IMG/VR virus record: IMGVR_UViG_3300008012_000103
Location: 1-30,507 of that record
Reading direction: 5' to 3' (one strand)
Length of the DNA stretch: 30,507 nt
DNA from: a virus
Shown here piece after piece: positions 14,754-30,377 of the stretch (position 1 is the first letter of the stretch; each line of letters opens with the position of its first letter). Under the pieces are notes generated by a model that was given only the letters and a program-made list of their open reading frames with translations, had not been told where the DNA came from and made no database searches. A program made the position numbers and the translations under genes.

Positions 14754-15782
14754 ATGTTAAAAGTAGGCAAAGCAATGTGTTTTGATGATATTCTTCTTGT
14801 TCCACAAAAAAGCTCAATATCTTCAAGACACGAAGTTAATTTGTCAATGAGTATAGGTTATAAAAAAAAGAAAATTAATCTAGAATTGCCTGTTATAGCA
14901 GCACCTATGGATACAGTTTGTGACACTGAAATGTGTATTGCTATGCATAATGCTGGCGGTATAGGAATCCTTCATAGATATATGTCTTATCAAGAACAAA
15001 TATTAAAGTCTCAAAACCTTTTAGAAAAAGAAATAAGATTTGGTGTTGCCCTTGCATCTAATAATGGATATCTTGCTCAGGCAGATCATTTATATAATGT
15101 TGGAGTAAGAGTTTTTCTTGTTGATACTGCAAACGGTCATAGTACTTATGCTACTAAGGCAGTAGCACAACTTAGAAACGCATTTAAAGATGCACATATT
15201 ATGGCTGGAAATGTTTCTACAAAAGACGGATTTTTAAGGTTGGCAGAAGCAGGAGCAGACTCTGTTCGCGTAGGAATTGGTGGAGGGAGTGCCTGCACTA
15301 CAAGAATGGTTAGTGGCCATGGAGTTCCAACATTACAATCAATTATGGATTGTGCAGAAACATTTCAAGAATGTTCCATCATTGCTGATGGAGGAATAAG
15401 AACAAGTGGAGACATGGTTAAGTCTTTTGCTGCTGGTGCTGATGCAGTAATGATTGGATCAATGCTTGCTGGGACAGATGAGTCCCCAGGAGAAATACTA
15501 ACAGATGCTGATGGTAGAGAGGTAAAAGCTTTCCGTGGCATGGCGAGTGCTTCTGCACAAAAAGATGCCACAGGAAAGGTTTCGGTAGCAGAAGGTATAT
15601 CTACTACTGTTCCATACAAGGGTTCTGTTGCACACATTCTTAATCAAATTCGTGGTGGACTAGGTAGTGGATGCTCTTATAGCGGAGCAGAGAATCTTTC
15701 ATGCCTTGAAGAATATTCAGAATATGTAACGGTATCAGCATTAAGTATAAATGAATCAATTCCACATGCAAAAATAGGATAG
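14754..15782 (+). CDS. IMP dehydrogenase / GMP reductase family enzyme without CBS domains
   Basis: AGGAGA precedes the ATG by 5 nt. The 342-aa TIM barrel has FDDILLVP (10-17), [10 protein letters not shown] (46-55), the phosphate-binding and catalytic loop [11 protein letters not shown] (174-184, Cys181), [10 protein letters not shown] (211-220), and the C-terminal PYKGSV (287-292). These are family hallmarks. IMPDH makes XMP from IMP and GMPR runs GMP to IMP; both use NAD(P). The length and absence of CBS domains are GMPR-like or minimal-IMPDH-like, and I cannot separate them by eye. As a phage purine gene it would raise or redirect guanine nucleotide supply. It sits oddly between the terminase and late-type genes. 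Confidence 0.85.
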
Positions 15783-20574: not shown

Positions 20575-20853
20575 ATGGATACTGAAACCAAATGTTTAAT
20601 TCTTGAAGAGCTTTCTAAAGCTTTTACTTTTGGGGAATTGGACAGGGAGTTTTTTTCAGAATTCATAATATATAATGATCTAGGTCTTCCACTAGCGCAA
20701 ATGGTTGCCTACGATCTTGGAACTTTAAATAATGATGGGAAAAAAATAATAGATGAAACATGGCTATCATTGTGTAATCTATTAAATTTAGACCCAACAG
20801 AAGAGTTTCAAAATATTGATGATATGCTAGATGAGTATGAGTCAGATGATTAA
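20575..20853 (+). CDS. Acidic hypothetical protein (92 aa)
   Basis: The gene follows the SSB stop by 1 nt (TAATATG) with no strong ribosome site of its own beyond GGGAATAA. The protein is helical and acidic with a very acidic C-terminus (DDMLDEYESDD). A central block (IIYNDLGLPLAQMVAYDLGTL) is reminiscent of small phage proteins of unknown function. Acidic tails of this kind sometimes mimic DNA, but nothing more can be said. Its end overlaps the convergent FkbM gene by 4 bp. Confidence 0.5.
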   Translation: MDTETKCLILEELSKAFTFGELDREFFSEFIIYNDLGLPLAQMVAYDLGTLNNDGKKIIDETWLSLCNLLNLDPTEEFQNIDDMLDEYESDD

Positions 20854-21578
20854 TTTACTGTTGCTAGGAAATTACCCTGATCATCTAGTCTAGAAATATT
20901 GTATCCAAAATCTCTTAACAGAGATTCAGATGTTGGAGGGGTTTGAATTCCAAGATCTGCCAATGTAGACTTTGAAATAGTTTTATGATTATGTTCAAAT
21001 ACTATTGTTGGCATACATTCTTTTATGGTTTTTTGTGCACCTAAAAGAACTAAGGGTTCAAATCCCTCCACATCTATTTTCATAAAATCAACATTCGATA
21101 GATCTAGCGAATCAATCGTAATGATATTGGTAGCCTCTCCACCCTTGCCCATTTGTAGTCCACCAAGATTATATCTTTTTTCTGTTCCATAACCTATTTC
21201 TCTATTTGCATTCTCACCATCAATAGATGAATTACTCATTGTAAATATTCTATTTTCATGTCCAACGGCACAGTTATATATGTGAACATTGTCAAAATTA
21301 TTTTGCTCTACATTATGGGTAAGCAAGTCTGACATTTTTCTTTGTGGCTCAAAGGCAAATATCTCAGAACTTGGATTTAGATATTTATACAATATTGTAT
21401 GAGATCCAGCATGTGCACCTATGTCAAGAATAGTTTTACTACTCTTTATATATGGTGCAAGTTTATTTAATACTAAGCCTTGCTCATATATCTTTCCATT
21501 ATTTAATGTATCAGCAAATACCTGATCATTTTTATAATAGGCTATGTATCCGTAATCAGTTTTCTTTTCTATAATCAC
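20850..21578 (-). CDS. FkbM-family SAM methyltransferase
   Basis: The GTG start at 21578 lies 6 nt after a TACAAT box, so it is probably leaderless. The 242-aa protein has SAM motif I LDIGAHAGSH (51-60), FAFEPQ (74-79, carrying the acidic residue for ribose), and KIDVEGFEPLVLLGA (167-181), the FkbM hallmark. FkbM enzymes O-methylate sugars or macrolides; many act on glycans and exopolysaccharides. Next to it, divergently, is a glycosyltransferase, suggesting a joint role on a glycan. The gene points opposite to the replication and late genes. Confidence 0.88.
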   Translation of the reverse strand: MIIEKKTDYGYIAYYKNDQVFADTLNNGKIYEQGLVLNKLAPYIKSSKTILDIGAHAGSHTILYKYLNPSSEIFAFEPQRKMSDLLTHNVEQNNFDNVHIYNCAVGHENRIFTMSNSSIDGENANREIGYGTEKRYNLGGLQMGKGGEATNIITIDSLDLSNVDFMKIDVEGFEPLVLLGAQKTIKECMPTIVFEHNHKTISKSTLADLGIQTPPTSESLLRDFGYNISRLDDQGNFLATVN

Positions 21579-21608: not shown

Positions 21609-22397
21609 ATGTTTAAACCCATACAATATGACAAGCATTTTGTTATCGGAACCCCCCTTGTTGGATGGAAAGTAGACAGAGGTGAGCATATGTACTGGTT
21701 ACAGAATGCAAATAAGATTAGAGAAAAATTTCCCAACGCTGTTTACTTTGCTGCATTAGAGCTTGATCACAGAGGAATAGAGCCATTTAAGCCAATGATA
21801 GAAGTATTAGAATCTGTTGGCGGTAATTACTGGACATACACTATTGATGATAGGCAGGAGACAGTAACATCTGGCAATCGCTGGATAAGAATTGAAACTG
21901 GTCGTAATCTTATTCGTGAGTTTGCACAAAGAAAAAGAGTAATGTCTGGAAATAATTGGGGAGAAGAAACAAAACAGTCAGTTGTAAATTTTGATGCGAT
22001 TCTTTATATAGACTCAGACAATATTGTTACAACGGAAATTATAGAAAAAATGTTTGAAATTGATAGACCACTTGTTGGTGTAGATGTTCCAGCATATGGG
22101 TTGAAGGGCGAAGTTGTAAATCAAAGACCAAGAATTGAGGAGCATTGGACAACTGCTGGAATGCTGCTTGTTAATGCTCCAGCCTATTACGACCTACCCT
22201 GGTTTCATAATGCATACTTAAATCTTAGCGATGACCCAACATTCCAATCAGTTGCGAATAGACTAAAAAGGCGGGTAGGACAAGAAACATTTGAAGATAC
22301 ATATGGAATGACATGGGTAAGAAAAGATATCAAGTCTGAGCATAAGGGTCAATTAATTTCTGTAGAGAAAAGAAATATACCTAATAGAATTATTTAG
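21609..22397 (+). CDS. Probable GT-A-type glycosyltransferase
   Basis: In this 262-aa protein VNFDAILYIDSDNIV (126-140) has the D-x-D metal site DSD (135-137) of GT-A glycosyltransferases, and the start FVIGTPLVGW resembles the first strand of family-2-like transferases. The region RPLVGVDVPAYGL and WTTAGMLLVNAPAYYDLPWF (about 180-200) looks like the acceptor half. The sugar and acceptor are unknown. Likely targets are phage virion proteins, DNA bases or a host glycan. The gene has its own leaderless promoter and overlaps the convergent endolysin gene by 8 bp. Confidence 0.75.
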   Translation: MFKPIQYDKHFVIGTPLVGWKVDRGEHMYWLQNANKIREKFPNAVYFAALELDHRGIEPFKPMIEVLESVGGNYWTYTIDDRQETVTSGNRWIRIETGRNLIREFAQRKRVMSGNNWGEETKQSVVNFDAILYIDSDNIVTTEIIEKMFEIDRPLVGVDVPAYGLKGEVVNQRPRIEEHWTTAGMLLVNAPAYYDLPWFHNAYLNLSDDPTFQSVANRLKRRVGQETFEDTYGMTWVRKDIKSEHKGQLISVEKRNIPNRII

Positions 22398-22917
22398 TTC
22401 TCTTGCCATTCTTTTTAATGCCAAGTAGCCTTTGTACTTCCTTAACATCTTTAAAGGTAGTATTTCTTTTAGCACCACGATCCCATGACTGAGAAAGTTC
22501 TGTGTGCATACCGTCTGGCTTTCTCCACCATTCACCATTTGCAAAAATTCTGTGACCATCCTTTGTCTTGTAACGATCAAGAATGCGGTTGAGGATCTTC
22601 ATTTCTGATTGATTCATGTGTGGCTTACCGTCTGGCTTAAGAACATCGTATCTAAGGTCTACGGCTGTTCCAGATGCGTGGTTTGAATAGTTTTTGGTAT
22701 ATCTAGAGTATCTGTAATTCCACCCGTCTACTGGACCTTTGTTTAGATTGAGTCTTTCTGGCATTTCAGCGTGCCAGTCTGCAAGAAATGCAGCAAAAAC
22801 TGGAGCGATGCCACGACGAACACGAACGGTTCGATTAGTTCCTGGAATTTTAACAGCCTTAAGTCTTGGATCTGCCCATTTTGTAATTACGGGCCAGTTG
22901 TTTAATGATTTAGCCAT
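22390..22917 (-). CDS. Endolysin: M15-family zinc peptidase (VanY/L-Ala-D-Glu type)
   Basis: The start at 22917 is chosen because a TATAAT box stands 6 nt upstream; an ATG at 22932 would add five residues. The 175-aa protein has the zinc ligands H80 and D87 (NHASGTAVDLRYD) and H138 (GMHTEL), as in M15 carboxypeptidase/endopeptidase lysins. It cuts the peptide part of peptidoglycan. There is no signal peptide, so a holin would be needed. The C-terminal DVKEVQRLLGI looks like the first helix of a PG_binding_1 repeat, but it is cut short before the repeat ends. The gene shares its promoter region with the kinase-P450 operon. Confidence 0.85.
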   Translation of the reverse strand: MAKSLNNWPVITKWADPRLKAVKIPGTNRTVRVRRGIAPVFAAFLADWHAEMPERLNLNKGPVDGWNYRYSRYTKNYSNHASGTAVDLRYDVLKPDGKPHMNQSEMKILNRILDRYKTKDGHRIFANGEWWRKPDGMHTELSQSWDRGAKRNTTFKDVKEVQRLLGIKKNGKRTK

Positions 22918-22923
22918 ACAAAT

Positions 22924-22929
22924 ATTATA
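22924..22929 (-). promoter_or_regulatory. Leaderless promoter for the endolysin (TATAAT, 6 nt before the ATG)
   Basis: On the minus strand TATAAT (22929-22924) is followed by ATTTGT and ATG 22917. The -10 overlaps by 2 bp the -10 of the rightward promoter. Confidence 0.65.
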
Positions 22930-22933
22930 CACT
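22928..22933 (+). promoter_or_regulatory. Leaderless promoter for the kinase-methyltransferase-P450 operon (TACACT, 6 nt before the ATG)
   Basis: TACACT at 22928-22933, then ATACCT and ATG 22940. The box fits the TANNNT form with the 6-nt gap seen elsewhere in this window, but is weaker than TATAAT. A second reading is TATACA (22926-22931), 8 nt before the ATG. Confidence 0.5.
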
Positions 22934-22939
22934 ATACCT

Positions 22940-23818
22940 ATGAATTACGAAGAATTCTTAAAGTTCTGGCTAGAAGAAAGCCAAGGGTTTAATAAATTTA
23001 CAGATATTCAGAGACTGTCTTCTGGAATATCATCTAATGTTTGTAGAATAGGTAATGCTAGTGGTGACACACTAATATTAAAATATGCTATATCAGATGA
23101 CTTTGTGACCAAAAAAAGAATATTCAATCAGTATCAAATACAAAAAACTCTTTATGGTAGCTTTCCTGTTGCCGAGCCTCTTTACTATAATATTTCTCCA
23201 TCAATTTTTGAATTTCCTTTTTACATAATGGAAGATATTGAAGGAAGGCCAAGTTACAATAGTGAATCAATAATTAATTCGTTTGATATGCTGCATAAGT
23301 TACACAGCATGGATCTTGATAAATTTTTAACATCGAAAACCAAGGGTAAAAATAACATAGGATATAATATACAAAAAATAAACAAACAATGTATTGATAG
23401 GTCAGAGTTAGTTCCCATAAATGTAGATCACATACATAAGTGGCTCATGAAAAATTATCCAGAAGAAAACAAAAATTCAATAGTTCATAATGATTGGAAA
23501 ATGGACAATATTTTATTTCATAATAATCAGATATCCGCAATACTAGATTGGGAGCTTTTTGATGTAGGAGATCCTAGAATGGATTTTGGCATAGCAATGT
23601 CTTACTGGTCGGATGAGTATTTATGTCCCAAGGAGAAGGTGCTTGATTTATTTATTGATAAGTATTTTGTAAGTGAAAAAGAGTGGAAATTCTTTGAGGT
23701 TTTAGGAATGTTTAGGCTAATTCCCATAGCACAATTAGCACAGATACGATATAATAATATGACTATCCAAGATAAAATAAATACGATAGTAGAAAGATGC
23801 GAAGGAGCAATAAGATAA
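22940..23818 (+). CDS. Aminoglycoside-phosphotransferase-fold (APH/choline kinase-like) enzyme
   Basis: The start at 22940 fits the leaderless promoter; an open frame from 22739 would run antisense over the endolysin. The 292-aa protein shows the kinase-like fold: glycine loop at about 28-33 (SSGISS), VHNDWKMDNILF (182-193) with catalytic D185 and N190, then the metal aspartate D203 in ILDWELFDVGDPRMDFG. This is the Brenner motif set of APH, choline and homoserine kinases. The substrate is probably a small hydroxyl compound. It opens a three-gene operon with a methyltransferase and a P450, which suggests work on one shared metabolite. Confidence 0.82.
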   Translation: MNYEEFLKFWLEESQGFNKFTDIQRLSSGISSNVCRIGNASGDTLILKYAISDDFVTKKRIFNQYQIQKTLYGSFPVAEPLYYNISPSIFEFPFYIMEDIEGRPSYNSESIINSFDMLHKLHSMDLDKFLTSKTKGKNNIGYNIQKINKQCIDRSELVPINVDHIHKWLMKNYPEENKNSIVHNDWKMDNILFHNNQISAILDWELFDVGDPRMDFGIAMSYWSDEYLCPKEKVLDLFIDKYFVSEKEWKFFEVLGMFRLIPIAQLAQIRYNNMTIQDKINTIVERCEGAIR

Positions 23819-24430
23819 ATGTCAAGGGTTTTATATCAGCCAGTATTAAATCAGGCCATTAATGATAACTCAGCAATACTTAGGGGCTGCCAAGATAGGC
23901 TAGATGCTATGGTTGCCTTTTGTGAAAACAAGTTTGGCTCCTCTCTTTCAGAAAAGTCATTTTTAGATATTGGATCTTGTTACGGATTTTTTGTAAATGC
24001 ATTTAATGGTTTATGCTCAATTGTTACTGGTATTGAGAATGGAAACAAAGAATTTAATATGACCAGAATATTTTATCCAGACATTTCTTCTCAAATAAAC
24101 AAAGAAGATTTTACAGAGACAATAGACGGCTACCAAAATTATGACATTGTTTCTCTTTTAAGCGTATTGCATAGCATAATAATTTCAGATGGTGCCGATC
24201 ATGCCGCAGAAATTCTAAGAAAAATTGATGCAAAAACAAATGATGTTTTATTTATTGATATGGGCCAAGAAAATGAATTAATTTATAACAGCAGTATGAG
24301 TGGATGGAATAAAGATTCTATTGCCCAATGGGTACTGAATGAGACAAGTTTTGATGTTTGTGAACCATTGATTGAAGACTCTGACCCAAGATTTGGAAGA
24401 ACCCTTTTTGCCTGTTATAGAAATAAGTAA
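23819..24430 (+). CDS. Class I SAM-dependent methyltransferase
   Basis: The ATG follows the previous TAA directly, with AAGGAG about 13 nt upstream. This 203-aa protein has motif I LDIGSCYGFF (49-58), the acidic end of strand 2 in VTGIENGN, and motif IV-like YDIVSLLSVLHSII (about 108-121), which together make up a Rossmann methyltransferase core. The N-terminus (RDxx-type basic helices) could form a substrate lid. The target atom cannot be read from sequence. Its stop overlaps the P450 start (TAATG), so the pair is coupled. Confidence 0.75.
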   Translation: MSRVLYQPVLNQAINDNSAILRGCQDRLDAMVAFCENKFGSSLSEKSFLDIGSCYGFFVNAFNGLCSIVTGIENGNKEFNMTRIFYPDISSQINKEDFTETIDGYQNYDIVSLLSVLHSIIISDGADHAAEILRKIDAKTNDVLFIDMGQENELIYNSSMSGWNKDSIAQWVLNETSFDVCEPLIEDSDPRFGRTLFACYRNK

Positions 24431-25602
24431 TGAAGCAAGTAATTGGCGGGGAAGACTTAATAAATAGTTTTATTTCTCTTAGAGACTCCTGTGATAATGG
24501 ATATTTTCATTATAGCTATGGCAAAAGAGATGCACTATTAATATTTTCTCCAGAAATTGTTAATGAGGTCTTAGTAAATAAACAAAACAGTTTTTCTAGA
24601 GGGATAGTTTTTCTTAAAATGAAAAACTTTTTTGGCAATGGCTTGATAGTATCAGAAGATCCAGAGCACATAACAAACAAAAGAATGCTGCAGGGTAGTT
24701 TTAGCAAAAAGATAGTTGATGATTATCAAACAATAATTAATAATGAATGCAATGCAAGCTTTGAAAACTTAGAAGAAAAAGGCTTCTCGTTGTCAAATTT
24801 AGCAGACAAGGTAGCATTTGATTGCGTTGCTAAATGTTTTATTGGAGAAGATGTTCCATCTGAATATATTTCTGCATACCATGATATATCTTATAAGATA
24901 TCTAACATTCCTAGACTTGTATTTTCTACTGAAGAAACAATTAATTTTTCGCCTGTTAGAAACTTTATAAAAGATATTATTTTACAGAGCAATGTACAAG
25001 ATAACTTACTTTGGTCAATGATTAATTCTGACATGAATACTGATCAAATAACTGATGAAATAATAACCATATTAGGTGCTGGATTTGAAACAACAAGTGC
25101 TTTGATATCTTGGACACTTATTAATTTGTATAACAATGATGACGTTCTACAAAAATGTAGAGAAGATGACTCAATGATAGATAAAGCTATTAAAGAAACA
25201 TTGAGAACAAATCCTCCTGCTTACTTTACAACTAGGACGGCATCAAATGATATAGATTTATCTGGCGTAACAATAAAGCAAGGAACAAATATTTTTATAT
25301 CGCAATATGTTACTCATAGGGATAAAAAATACTATTCAGATCCAGATAATTGGAACCCTGAAAGATGGAGTAAACAATTTGAAAAAAGCTTGCCCCGTGG
25401 AGCATACTTCCCTTTTGGAATGGGGTCTAAAAAATGTATTGGCGAATATTTTTCTATAATGGTTGCAAAAACCTTTATTTCATTATTCATTAATAGATAT
25501 CATTTTGAAATAATTGACAAAAATATTAAACCAAAGTACCTTGTTTCCATGATTCCAGATAGCCCTGTGACTACAATCACTAGTAGTTTGTTCGACAAAT
25601 AA
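24430..25602 (+). CDS. Cytochrome P450
   Basis: This 390-aa protein has all P450 hallmarks: the C-helix region with H80 and R85 (EHITNKRML), the I-helix oxygen site GAGFETTS (216-223), the ExxR pair E256/R259 (KETLR), the PERF-like NPERW (309-313), and the heme loop FGMGSKKCIG (329-338) with C336 as thiolate ligand. There is no membrane anchor, so it should be soluble and fed by a ferredoxin; no redox partner gene is visible, so host proteins are implied. It inserts oxygen into a small molecule. Arginine codons are nearly all AGA/AGG, unlike the CGT-using core genes. P450 genes are rare in phages. Confidence 0.93.
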   Translation: MKQVIGGEDLINSFISLRDSCDNGYFHYSYGKRDALLIFSPEIVNEVLVNKQNSFSRGIVFLKMKNFFGNGLIVSEDPEHITNKRMLQGSFSKKIVDDYQTIINNECNASFENLEEKGFSLSNLADKVAFDCVAKCFIGEDVPSEYISAYHDISYKISNIPRLVFSTEETINFSPVRNFIKDIILQSNVQDNLLWSMINSDMNTDQITDEIITILGAGFETTSALISWTLINLYNNDDVLQKCREDDSMIDKAIKETLRTNPPAYFTTRTASNDIDLSGVTIKQGTNIFISQYVTHRDKKYYSDPDNWNPERWSKQFEKSLPRGAYFPFGMGSKKCIGEYFSIMVAKTFISLFINRYHFEIIDKNIKPKYLVSMIPDSPVTTITSSLFDK

Positions 25603-28861: not shown

Positions 28862-29040
28862 TGATTAAATGCTGGAACTGCGGTACAGAAATGGAAAAAC
28901 GCGGGGTAGAAGAATACAAAGCATCATTACTAGCTAATATAAGAAATCTAGAAGAAATATTTTCTACCGTAGGAGATAACTATAGGGCAAGTGCCTATGA
29001 AGATATTATCTATTTGATTGAGAACTTTGATGGGCAATGA
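28858..29040 (+). CDS. Small protein with one CxxC (60 aa)
   Basis: The ATG overlaps the preceding TGA. The N-terminus KCWNCG (4-9) is half a zinc ribbon and the rest is a helix (YKASLLANIRNLEEIFSTVG) plus an acidic tail. The other half of a ribbon is absent, so it may dimerise around one zinc. Its 3' end overlaps the convergent dioxygenase gene by 31 bp. Confidence 0.5.
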   Translation: MMIKCWNCGTEMEKRGVEEYKASLLANIRNLEEIFSTVGDNYRASAYEDIIYLIENFDGQ

Positions 29041-29591
29041 GGAATCTCTCCATATGGCACATCATTTAGCCATGTTACAAGAACAAATTTTTCTCCTGAT
29101 TTTACTGGCATAGCCTTGTGAGTGCAGACATAGTTTGATGGAAAGAATACCGCTGAAGGAGTCTGAGGCTTTATACTCACATCATAATATTGAAAGTATG
29201 TCTGCCCACCCTCATATTCGGTCGGGTTTAAATAAACAATGACTGAGGTAGTTCTATATATATTCCACGCAGCATCTGAATGATAATCGAAATATTGTCC
29301 TTGTTCGTATTTGAGCAGACTAACCCTTTCTGATGAACGTAGATCCGCATTTGGATGATTTGCACAATAGTCTTGAGAGTAAGAAATAAGTAAGTCTTTT
29401 AGCTTATTTTTTATATCGGGGCTAAACCATTTAAAGGGAGTTTCTGTACTTGTTCTTTGAGGCTGAGTAGAGACTTCCCCTGCAAGAAGAGAGTCTTTCC
29501 ACATTGGCTTTATTCTTTGTGAGAAAGCAATAATATCTTTGGCAAGTTCGGGTGGGAAATCATATACTTCAAATCCTGGTGGATATATCAT
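29010..29591 (-). CDS. 2-oxoglutarate/Fe(II) dioxygenase (prolyl 4-hydroxylase-like)
   Basis: In this 193-aa double-stranded beta-helix protein the iron ligands are H104-x-D106 (FDYHSDAAW) and H158 (VCTHKAMPV), and K168 (SGEKFVLVTW) is the 2-oxoglutarate anchor. The order H-x-D...H...K is that of P4H-type dioxygenases. They hydroxylate proline in proteins or small molecules. The start overlaps the sulfotransferase by 23 nt, with AAGGAAAGG about 12 nt upstream, so both form a minus-strand operon. It may act on a virion protein, a host glycoprotein or a metabolite. Confidence 0.85.
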   Translation of the reverse strand: MIYPPGFEVYDFPPELAKDIIAFSQRIKPMWKDSLLAGEVSTQPQRTSTETPFKWFSPDIKNKLKDLLISYSQDYCANHPNADLRSSERVSLLKYEQGQYFDYHSDAAWNIYRTTSVIVYLNPTEYEGGQTYFQYYDVSIKPQTPSAVFFPSNYVCTHKAMPVKSGEKFVLVTWLNDVPYGEIPHCPSKFSIK

Positions 29592-30360
29592 TATCGAATC
29601 TTTCCTTTCCTTTAATATATATCTCGTAATCTGGGCTTTTGTCGTAGAACTTTTGTCTGGGAAATAAACAGTCGTATGGCTTACCCACAGCCTTATCTTT
29701 GTTGTCGTTGGTGTTGCCTCCTGCCACCTTTATTCCCCACAAGCTATTTAACAGGTCTATGGTAGCAGACATGTTTTCCGTTATGCCAACGGAATCAAAA
29801 GAATCAACGTCATCAAAATAAACGGGGTAGGTAGGATTATCTACTGACCACTCTAAGTAATCATCTACACTCATATCATACTTATGAATGTTATATGTCT
29901 TGTCATAAAAAGCAGTTGATGGACCATCGTCAGTAAATCCTCCCCAACCAGAAATTCCCATTATCTTTCCTGTGTGGTGAGCTAAAAACTCAAGTTTGCG
30001 AGGATCGGTTAAATCCCAATTTTTAAAAATGCTCAATGCGTTCTGTGCCTGTCGCTTGATGAAATAGTATTCAGAAGCAGCCCTGTCATAAGGATCGCGG
30101 AGAACAGTAAAGTAGGGGGTAGAGTTATTCGTAATCTCCTTTATGAGAGAAAGAGTCATATGAGAAGAGCCAGGAGTCTTAGAGTTTCTTAGCCGTGCTC
30201 GTCCTAAAGAATAAGGGGAATAATAATGAGAAGGCACGGGGGTTAGAGAAAGATATGTACTTCCTGTCTTAGGTACAAACACTATCCCTATAGATGTATT
30301 AATAGAAGGAGAAGATCTAGATATGGTGGTTATTTCTTTGTATTTTTTGGCTTCATTCAT
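29569..30360 (-). CDS. Sulfotransferase (PAPS-dependent)
   Basis: The start at 30360 is favoured because an extended -10 (TGaTATACT) stands 8 nt upstream; an open frame from 30378 would add six residues and overlap it. The 263-aa protein has the 5'-phosphosulfate loop VPKTGSTYL (29-37) and the 3'-phosphate site FTVLRDPYDRAASEYY (84-99), the two defining PAPS-binding motifs. Family members sulfate sugars, peptides or small molecules. The acceptor is unknown; linkage to a dioxygenase and to glycosyltransferase/methyltransferase genes suggests a glycan or a natural-product-like molecule. No PAPS synthesis gene is visible, so the host must supply the donor. Confidence 0.82.
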   Translation of the reverse strand: MNEAKKYKEITTISRSSPSINTSIGIVFVPKTGSTYLSLTPVPSHYYSPYSLGRARLRNSKTPGSSHMTLSLIKEITNNSTPYFTVLRDPYDRAASEYYFIKRQAQNALSIFKNWDLTDPRKLEFLAHHTGKIMGISGWGGFTDDGPSTAFYDKTYNIHKYDMSVDDYLEWSVDNPTYPVYFDDVDSFDSVGITENMSATIDLLNSLWGIKVAGGNTNDNKDKAVGKPYDCLFPRQKFYDKSPDYEIYIKGKERFDNDISTRI

Positions 30361-30368
30361 GATAAATA

Positions 30369-30377
30369 AGTATATCA
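30369..30377 (-). promoter_or_regulatory. Extended -10 promoter (TGaTATACT) for the sulfotransferase operon
   Basis: On the minus strand TGaTATACT ends 8 nt before ATG 30360, so the leader would be only 1-2 nt. There is no ribosome site. This is a nearly leaderless variant of the pattern seen elsewhere. Confidence 0.5.

Follow-up and report, generated by a model that had tools for sequence, protein, structure and literature searches.

Overlapping sulfotransferase and oxygenase genes in an actinophage-like contig

Two genes on the minus strand of the viral contig IMGVR_UViG_3300008012_000103, P0002 and P0001, encode a predicted sulfotransferase and a predicted Fe(II)/2-oxoglutarate (2OG) oxygenase, respectively (Table 1). 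The window is the whole stretch of 30,507 nt that was analyzed, a 30.5-kb viral contig with a G+C content of 37%. The initial annotation had described the two genes as a minus-strand unit, and both open reading frames (ORFs) were found where it placed them, tightly linked by a 23-bp overlap and probably co-translated; P0001 also has its own ribosome-binding site, with a clear Shine–Dalgarno (SD)-like AAAGGAAAGGAAAG. The near-leaderless promoter proposed at the same time did not hold up: TGATATACT lies where a leaderless transcript would require a −10 box, but no −35 box was found upstream of it, and a scan returned 6 promoter-like sites compared with 6.3 in shuffled sequences.

Table 1. Sequence features of the P0002–P0001 locus (window coordinates)
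Feature	Position	Strand	Remarks
Predicted sulfotransferase gene P0002	29569..30360	-	263 aa, ATG start; PF00685, phrog_3347, phage sulfotransferase HMM, BLAST
5′-PSB motif PKTGST, residues 30-35	30256..30273	-	P30 and K31 invariant in 24 phage sulfotransferases
H67, candidate catalytic base	30160..30162	-	Invariant in 24 phage sulfotransferases
3′-PB motif R88-S96 (RDPYDRAAS)	30073..30099	-	R88, P90, Y91, and S96 invariant in 24 phage sulfotransferases
Predicted P4H-like Fe(II)/2OG oxygenase gene P0001	29010..29591	-	193 aa, ATG start; PF13640, phrog_61
HxD iron ligands H104 and D106	29274..29282	-	Sequence motif
Distal iron ligand H158	29118..29120	-	Sequence motif
K168, presumed 2OG carboxylate anchor	29088..29090	-	Sequence motif
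Overlap of P0002 and P0001 reading frames	29569..29591	-	23 bp
SD-like AAAGGAAAGGAAAG	29600..29613	-	8 nt 5′ of oxygenase ATG
Extended −10-like TGATATACT	30369..30377	-	8 nt 5′ of sulfotransferase ATG; not above chance

P0002 is predicted to be a PAPS-type sulfotransferase. It passes the curated Pfam cutoff for PF00685 marginally (23.2 bits, cutoff 22), is recovered by a hidden Markov model (HMM) made from other phage sulfotransferases, and matches two other phage sulfotransferases by BLASTP (E = 2e-6 and 5e-5). Both PAPS motifs claimed in the initial annotation were found, PKTGST starting at residue 30 and LRDPYDRAAS at residue 87, and loss of these motifs from homologs, which it had named as evidence against its reading, was not seen: P30, K31, H67, R88, P90, Y91, and S96 are invariant in an alignment of 24 phage sulfotransferases. 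P0002 shares the 5′-PSB, the 3′-PB, and a conserved histidine with the PF00685/PF03567 sulfotransferases, which include the heparan sulfate 2-O- and 6-O-enzymes and the phage "Galactose-3-O-sulfotransferase" phrog_3347, but it is short and very divergent from them. Its profile matched the phage sulfotransferase family weakly (hhalign probability 15.5, E = 0.0017), and its AlphaFold model has a pLDDT of 36. The agreement in fold was modeled for a sister phage family rather than for P0002 itself; that model (pLDDT 89.7) best matched heparan sulfate 6-O- and 2-O-sulfotransferases (Z = 11.4 and 9.2), a resemblance that does not decide between a protein and a glycan acceptor. No match to P0002 was detected by TBLASTN in phages at E = 0.1 or by phmmer in the Protein Data Bank, and in bacterial species genomes a peptide pattern found none, with one marginal match in 9 genomes. 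A motif scan with VLRDPYDRA gave a chance match only, in locus L254, which is not a sulfotransferase.

The P0001 product is unambiguously predicted, from its motifs and profile match, to be a prolyl 4-hydroxylase (P4H)-like Fe(II)/2OG oxygenase. It scores 51.4 bits against PF13640 (curated Pfam cutoff 27), its closest solved structures are prolyl 4-hydroxylases, and the residues H104, D106, H158, and K168 occur at the positions given in the initial annotation. The HxD...H and lysine arrangement is that of prolyl 4-hydroxylases and of phage 2OG-Fe(II) oxygenases (phrog_61, PF13640; cyanophage PiuC-like), and P0001 is 25-35% identical to cyanophage oxygenase proteins. Unlike P0001, two cyanophage relatives that were checked have helicase or endonuclease V genes as neighbors and no sulfotransferase. 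An alignment search of viral contigs with P0001 returned five oxygenase loci, two of them (L256 and L257) on contigs already known to carry a pair and three new ones without a sulfotransferase.

The contig's order of helicase, primase, SSB, DnaE, RecA, Cas4-like exonuclease, RuvC, and terminase genes is that of Streptomyces phage BillNye, and its DnaE is ~54% identical to those of the Stanwilliamsviridae. On the basis of shared replication genes and their order, rather than of a tree, we assign it as a putative fragment of a Stanwilliamsviridae-like actinophage, the host of which is likely an actinobacterium. Isolates of phages that infect freshwater actinobacteria exist (PMC10202952). A 54.8-kb record (L006/G003) aligns at ~100% over contig positions 1-2900 and has an identical DnaE; its coordinates span contig positions 1 to ~19,000 and end before the sulfotransferase and oxygenase genes. 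The neighbors of the pair in the contig are small genes of unassigned function. Elsewhere, a cassette of an APH-type kinase, a methyltransferase, and a cytochrome P450 lies at 22739-25602 (+), with a G+C content of 30-33% compared with 38% in the core. P450 genes are scarce in phages, with matches in three phage records. Adjoining this cassette are an FkbM methyltransferase gene (60 bits; 20850-21578, −) and a gene for a weakly glycosyltransferase-like protein (21609-22397, +). An IMP dehydrogenase/GMP reductase family gene (328 bits; 14754-15782, +) is found immediately 3′ of the terminase gene.

Recurrence of the gene pair in related phages

Fifty records with a related DnaE were collected, 25 of which were read almost fully; in these 25, sulfotransferases and Fe/2OG oxygenases were called by iterated HMMs. 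Nine of 14 sulfotransferase genes, including the contig's own, directly adjoin an Fe/2OG oxygenase gene, eight of them on the same strand. With the contig's own gene left out, the count is 8 of 13, seven on the same strand, compared with an expectation of 0.97 under whole-genome shuffling (p = 5e-5). When shuffling was confined to 10 genes, 2.0 were expected (p = 2e-4), and when it was confined to 5 genes, 3.0 (p = 3.5e-4). When one sulfotransferase per homologous class was counted, again without the contig's own, 6 of 11 were paired, with p = 1e-4 for the whole genome, 2e-3 within 10 genes, and 5e-3 (4.8e-3) within 5 genes. The coupling suggested in the initial annotation therefore recurs in related phages far above chance (8 of 13 where about one is expected), and the separation of the two genes in all related phages, which it had named as evidence to the contrary, was not observed.

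The same-strand pairs are closely packed. Six of the seven others in the 25 records lie between a 4-bp overlap and a 3-bp gap, the seventh being separated by 70 bp, and the contig's own pair likewise overlaps (23 bp). Both gene orders and two oxygenase families (PF13640 and PF05118) occur among the pairs. Since the partner family (P4H-like or aspartyl/asparaginyl β-hydroxylase, AspH), the gene order, and the sulfotransferase class all vary, the pairs arose repeatedly. Of the 43 Fe/2OG oxygenases in these phages, however, 37 lack a sulfotransferase alongside, and the contigs G017, G027, G046, and G050 each carry six to eight Fe/2OG oxygenase genes. We found no ortholog of the P0002–P0001 pair itself with peptide patterns in viral contigs, TBLASTN in phages, the DnaE-related records, or a motif scan.

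Viral contigs were also searched by sulfotransferase alone, blind to neighbors, for three sulfotransferase classes. All 50 loci of the class designated ST2 are paired: 49 have an AspH gene (PF05118) immediately after the sulfotransferase gene, overlapping it by 4 bp in 38 cases; in the remaining locus, L253, a P4H-like oxygenase gene stands immediately before the sulfotransferase gene. The G027 class comprises six loci, in every one of which a P4H-like oxygenase gene shares a 4-bp overlap with the sulfotransferase gene; each locus also carries a second, divergent sulfotransferase–oxygenase pair. In the G042 class, 12 of 18 loci have an oxygenase immediately beside a sulfotransferase and six are unpaired. 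The 4-bp overlaps are kept across sulfotransferase divergence down to ~40-50% identity. Loci within each class are related by descent and thus show conservation rather than independent events; the independence of the pairings follows from the variation in sulfotransferase class, gene order, and partner family. The sulfotransferase–AspH result concerns relatives of the same kind and not the P0002 and P0001 genes themselves.

By contrast, in a bacterial control, which used longest-ORF calling and oxygenase HMMs built from phage sequences and may therefore miss partners of other families, none of 66 chromosomal sulfotransferase relatives had an Fe/2OG oxygenase within three genes. Five phage sulfotransferase loci, from cyanophages P-SSM7 and ACG-2014f, pelagiphage Mosig, and two uncultured phages, are unpaired, and the neighbors of annotated unpaired phage sulfotransferases are glycosyltransferases, an epimerase, or a baseplate gene. 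The annotated cyanophage and pelagiphage enzymes have a glycan or baseplate context and no adjoining oxygenase, unlike the pair in the contig. The AspH genes of phages DC33, MW202665, and PfAn1 are found beside terminase or virion genes and have no sulfotransferase.

Sulfation by a phage enzyme had been described in the initial annotation as rarely seen, but sulfotransferases are encoded widely among phages: a BFVD search gave 23 viral matches at E <= 0.001, among them Roseobacter phage SIO1, Ralstonia phage phiRSL1, and cyanophages, and such genes also occur in OM43 phages (PMC10580990), where the function of phage sulfotransferases was called unclear (PMC10580990). No description of sulfotransferase–oxygenase pairing was found in the CC-licensed PMC text.

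Genomic surroundings of the pairs

The sulfotransferase–AspH pair of related actinophages (L204-L252) resembles the pair in the contig in that the sulfotransferase comes first, the hydroxylase adjoins it, and the reading frames overlap. It differs in its partner, a PF05118 aspartyl/asparaginyl β-hydroxylase rather than a P4H-like enzyme, and in its genome position and neighbors. In actinophages, the sulfotransferase–oxygenase pair is found near lysis genes, and in L252 it lies amid fiber-like genes, one glycine-rich and collagen-like. The stretch L252:62-8522 holds two different sulfotransferases (PF13469 and PF03567) and AspH between glycine-rich fiber-like genes, with more 2OG genes at both ends, and in L253:1-3993 a single sulfotransferase gene lies within a series of several Fe/2OG-type oxygenase genes, just ahead of a likely virion protein.

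Other tailoring genes accompany the pairs. A tryptophan halogenase gene is present within 4 kb in 33 of the 50 sulfotransferase–AspH loci; such genes near sulfotransferase–oxygenase pairs include L113:11911-13458 (−) and L119:9136-10689 (+). An alkanesulfonate-monooxygenase-like gene stands immediately before the sulfotransferase in 25 of the 50 loci, and in G017 a gene of this kind is fused to a 2OG domain. At L115:7051-8505 (+), two genes from a sulfotransferase–2OG pair, an alkanesulfonate-monooxygenase-like flavin enzyme is fused to a P4H-like 2OG oxygenase; homologs of its N-terminal part are those that precede the sulfotransferase in the 25 loci.

An APS-kinase-like gene is encoded near the pair in 44 of the 50 sulfotransferase–AspH loci and follows AspH in 33. 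We considered it as a source of PAPS and downgraded this reading, on which we do not rely because homologs in Stenotrophomonas and Clavibacter phages have no sulfotransferase in the 8-9 kb examined and because the second domain of the protein is NMN-adenylyltransferase-like. The fusion of the two domains is seen at L209:3467-4225 (+) and also in several Stenotrophomonas and Clavibacter phages.

Possible function of the paired enzymes

Hydroxylase and sulfotransferase genes that overlap and have been reassembled several times point to one pathway. We consider it fairly probable that P0002 and P0001 form a single co-translated hydroxylation/sulfation tailoring module in which the sulfotransferase acts on the oxygenase product. 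The oxygenase would hydroxylate a side chain or another C–H position with the help of O2, Fe(II), and 2-oxoglutarate. The sulfotransferase would then transfer the sulfuryl group of PAPS onto a hydroxyl, with the newly made one as the most economical choice, so that a phage or host molecule would bear a charged sulfate ester. We infer the activity of both enzymes, their common acceptor, and the order of the reactions; adjacency is not proof of a common substrate. The acceptor would most likely be a protein or glycan produced in the course of infection, such as a tail-fiber component, an assignment we make with low confidence, and the modification may decorate the virion or the host surface. Mimivirus provides a partial parallel: its lysyl hydroxylase/glycosyltransferase hydroxylates viral collagen and then adds a group to the new hydroxyl, the second step being glycosylation rather than the sulfation proposed here.

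One competing explanation is that two tailoring enzymes with different target molecules stand side by side by happenstance in an accessory island. Accessory regions of these phages do hold up to eight Fe/2OG oxygenases per record together with halogenases, methyltransferases, and kinases, and the six unpaired loci of the 18 in the G042 class fit such an account, but shuffling within 5 genes still gives p = 3.5e-4 (4.8e-3 with one sulfotransferase per class and the contig's own left out) and the 4-bp overlaps persist at ~40-50% sulfotransferase identity; we regard chance proximity as rather unlikely. Slightly more credible, and still only a tentative option, is that the sulfotransferase modifies a sugar of the virion or host surface while the oxygenase is auxiliary or modifies a carrier protein. 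The nearness of the phage sulfotransferase fold to heparan sulfate 6-O- and 2-O-sulfotransferases argues for this, as do the glycosyltransferases and epimerase, or the tail-fiber or baseplate gene, beside annotated cyanophage and pelagiphage sulfotransferases, and the glycosyltransferase-like and FkbM methyltransferase genes 8-9 kb from the pair in the contig. Against it, no glycosyltransferase was noted immediately beside the sulfotransferase–oxygenase pairs, and P4H- and AspH-type Fe/2OG oxygenases are known mainly for acting on amino acid side chains.

Two further accounts were considered. A natural-product-like pathway tailoring a small molecule would draw in the halogenase (33 of 50 loci), flavin monooxygenase (25 of 50, with the 2OG fusion in G017), and the contig's own P450, kinase, and methyltransferase cassette; we consider it improbable, as neither a synthetase, nor a precursor peptide, nor an enzyme that would build a scaffold was recognized. 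That the genes rewire host sulfur use with no molecule decorated is very improbable. The APS-kinase-like gene after AspH in 33 of 50 loci and the upstream alkanesulfonate-monooxygenase-like or TauD genes would suit such a role, but the kinase scores far under the apsK cutoff, forms a fusion with a domain most similar to NMN adenylyltransferases, and occurs in phages for which the 8-9 kb examined showed no sulfotransferase. Genes for the reduction of sulfate or sulfite were not noted.

The favored two-step hydroxylation and sulfation could extend, more speculatively, to the wider group: it is conceivable, if doubtful, that Stanwilliamsviridae-related phages have repeatedly assembled modules, each consisting of a sulfotransferase and an oxygenase of the P4H-like or AspH type and often located close to halogenase and flavin monooxygenase genes, that place a sulfated hydroxy-amino acid on virion or host proteins. 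To our knowledge, this modification has not been described in phages. The enzymes themselves are ordinary, phage sulfotransferases and phage 2OG oxygenases each being common; it is their combination that is unusual and recurrent, and the recurrent overlapping pairing hints at a joint pathway. Should the acceptor turn out to be one of the virion proteins, this would represent a novel type of modification for viral proteins.

At L113:9192-9670 (+), the divergent sulfotransferase and the 2OG–sulfotransferase pair are separated by two small ORFs that are paralogs of each other (76 and 82 aa); they are kept in 6 of 6 loci of the G027 class, and their products are possible acceptors.
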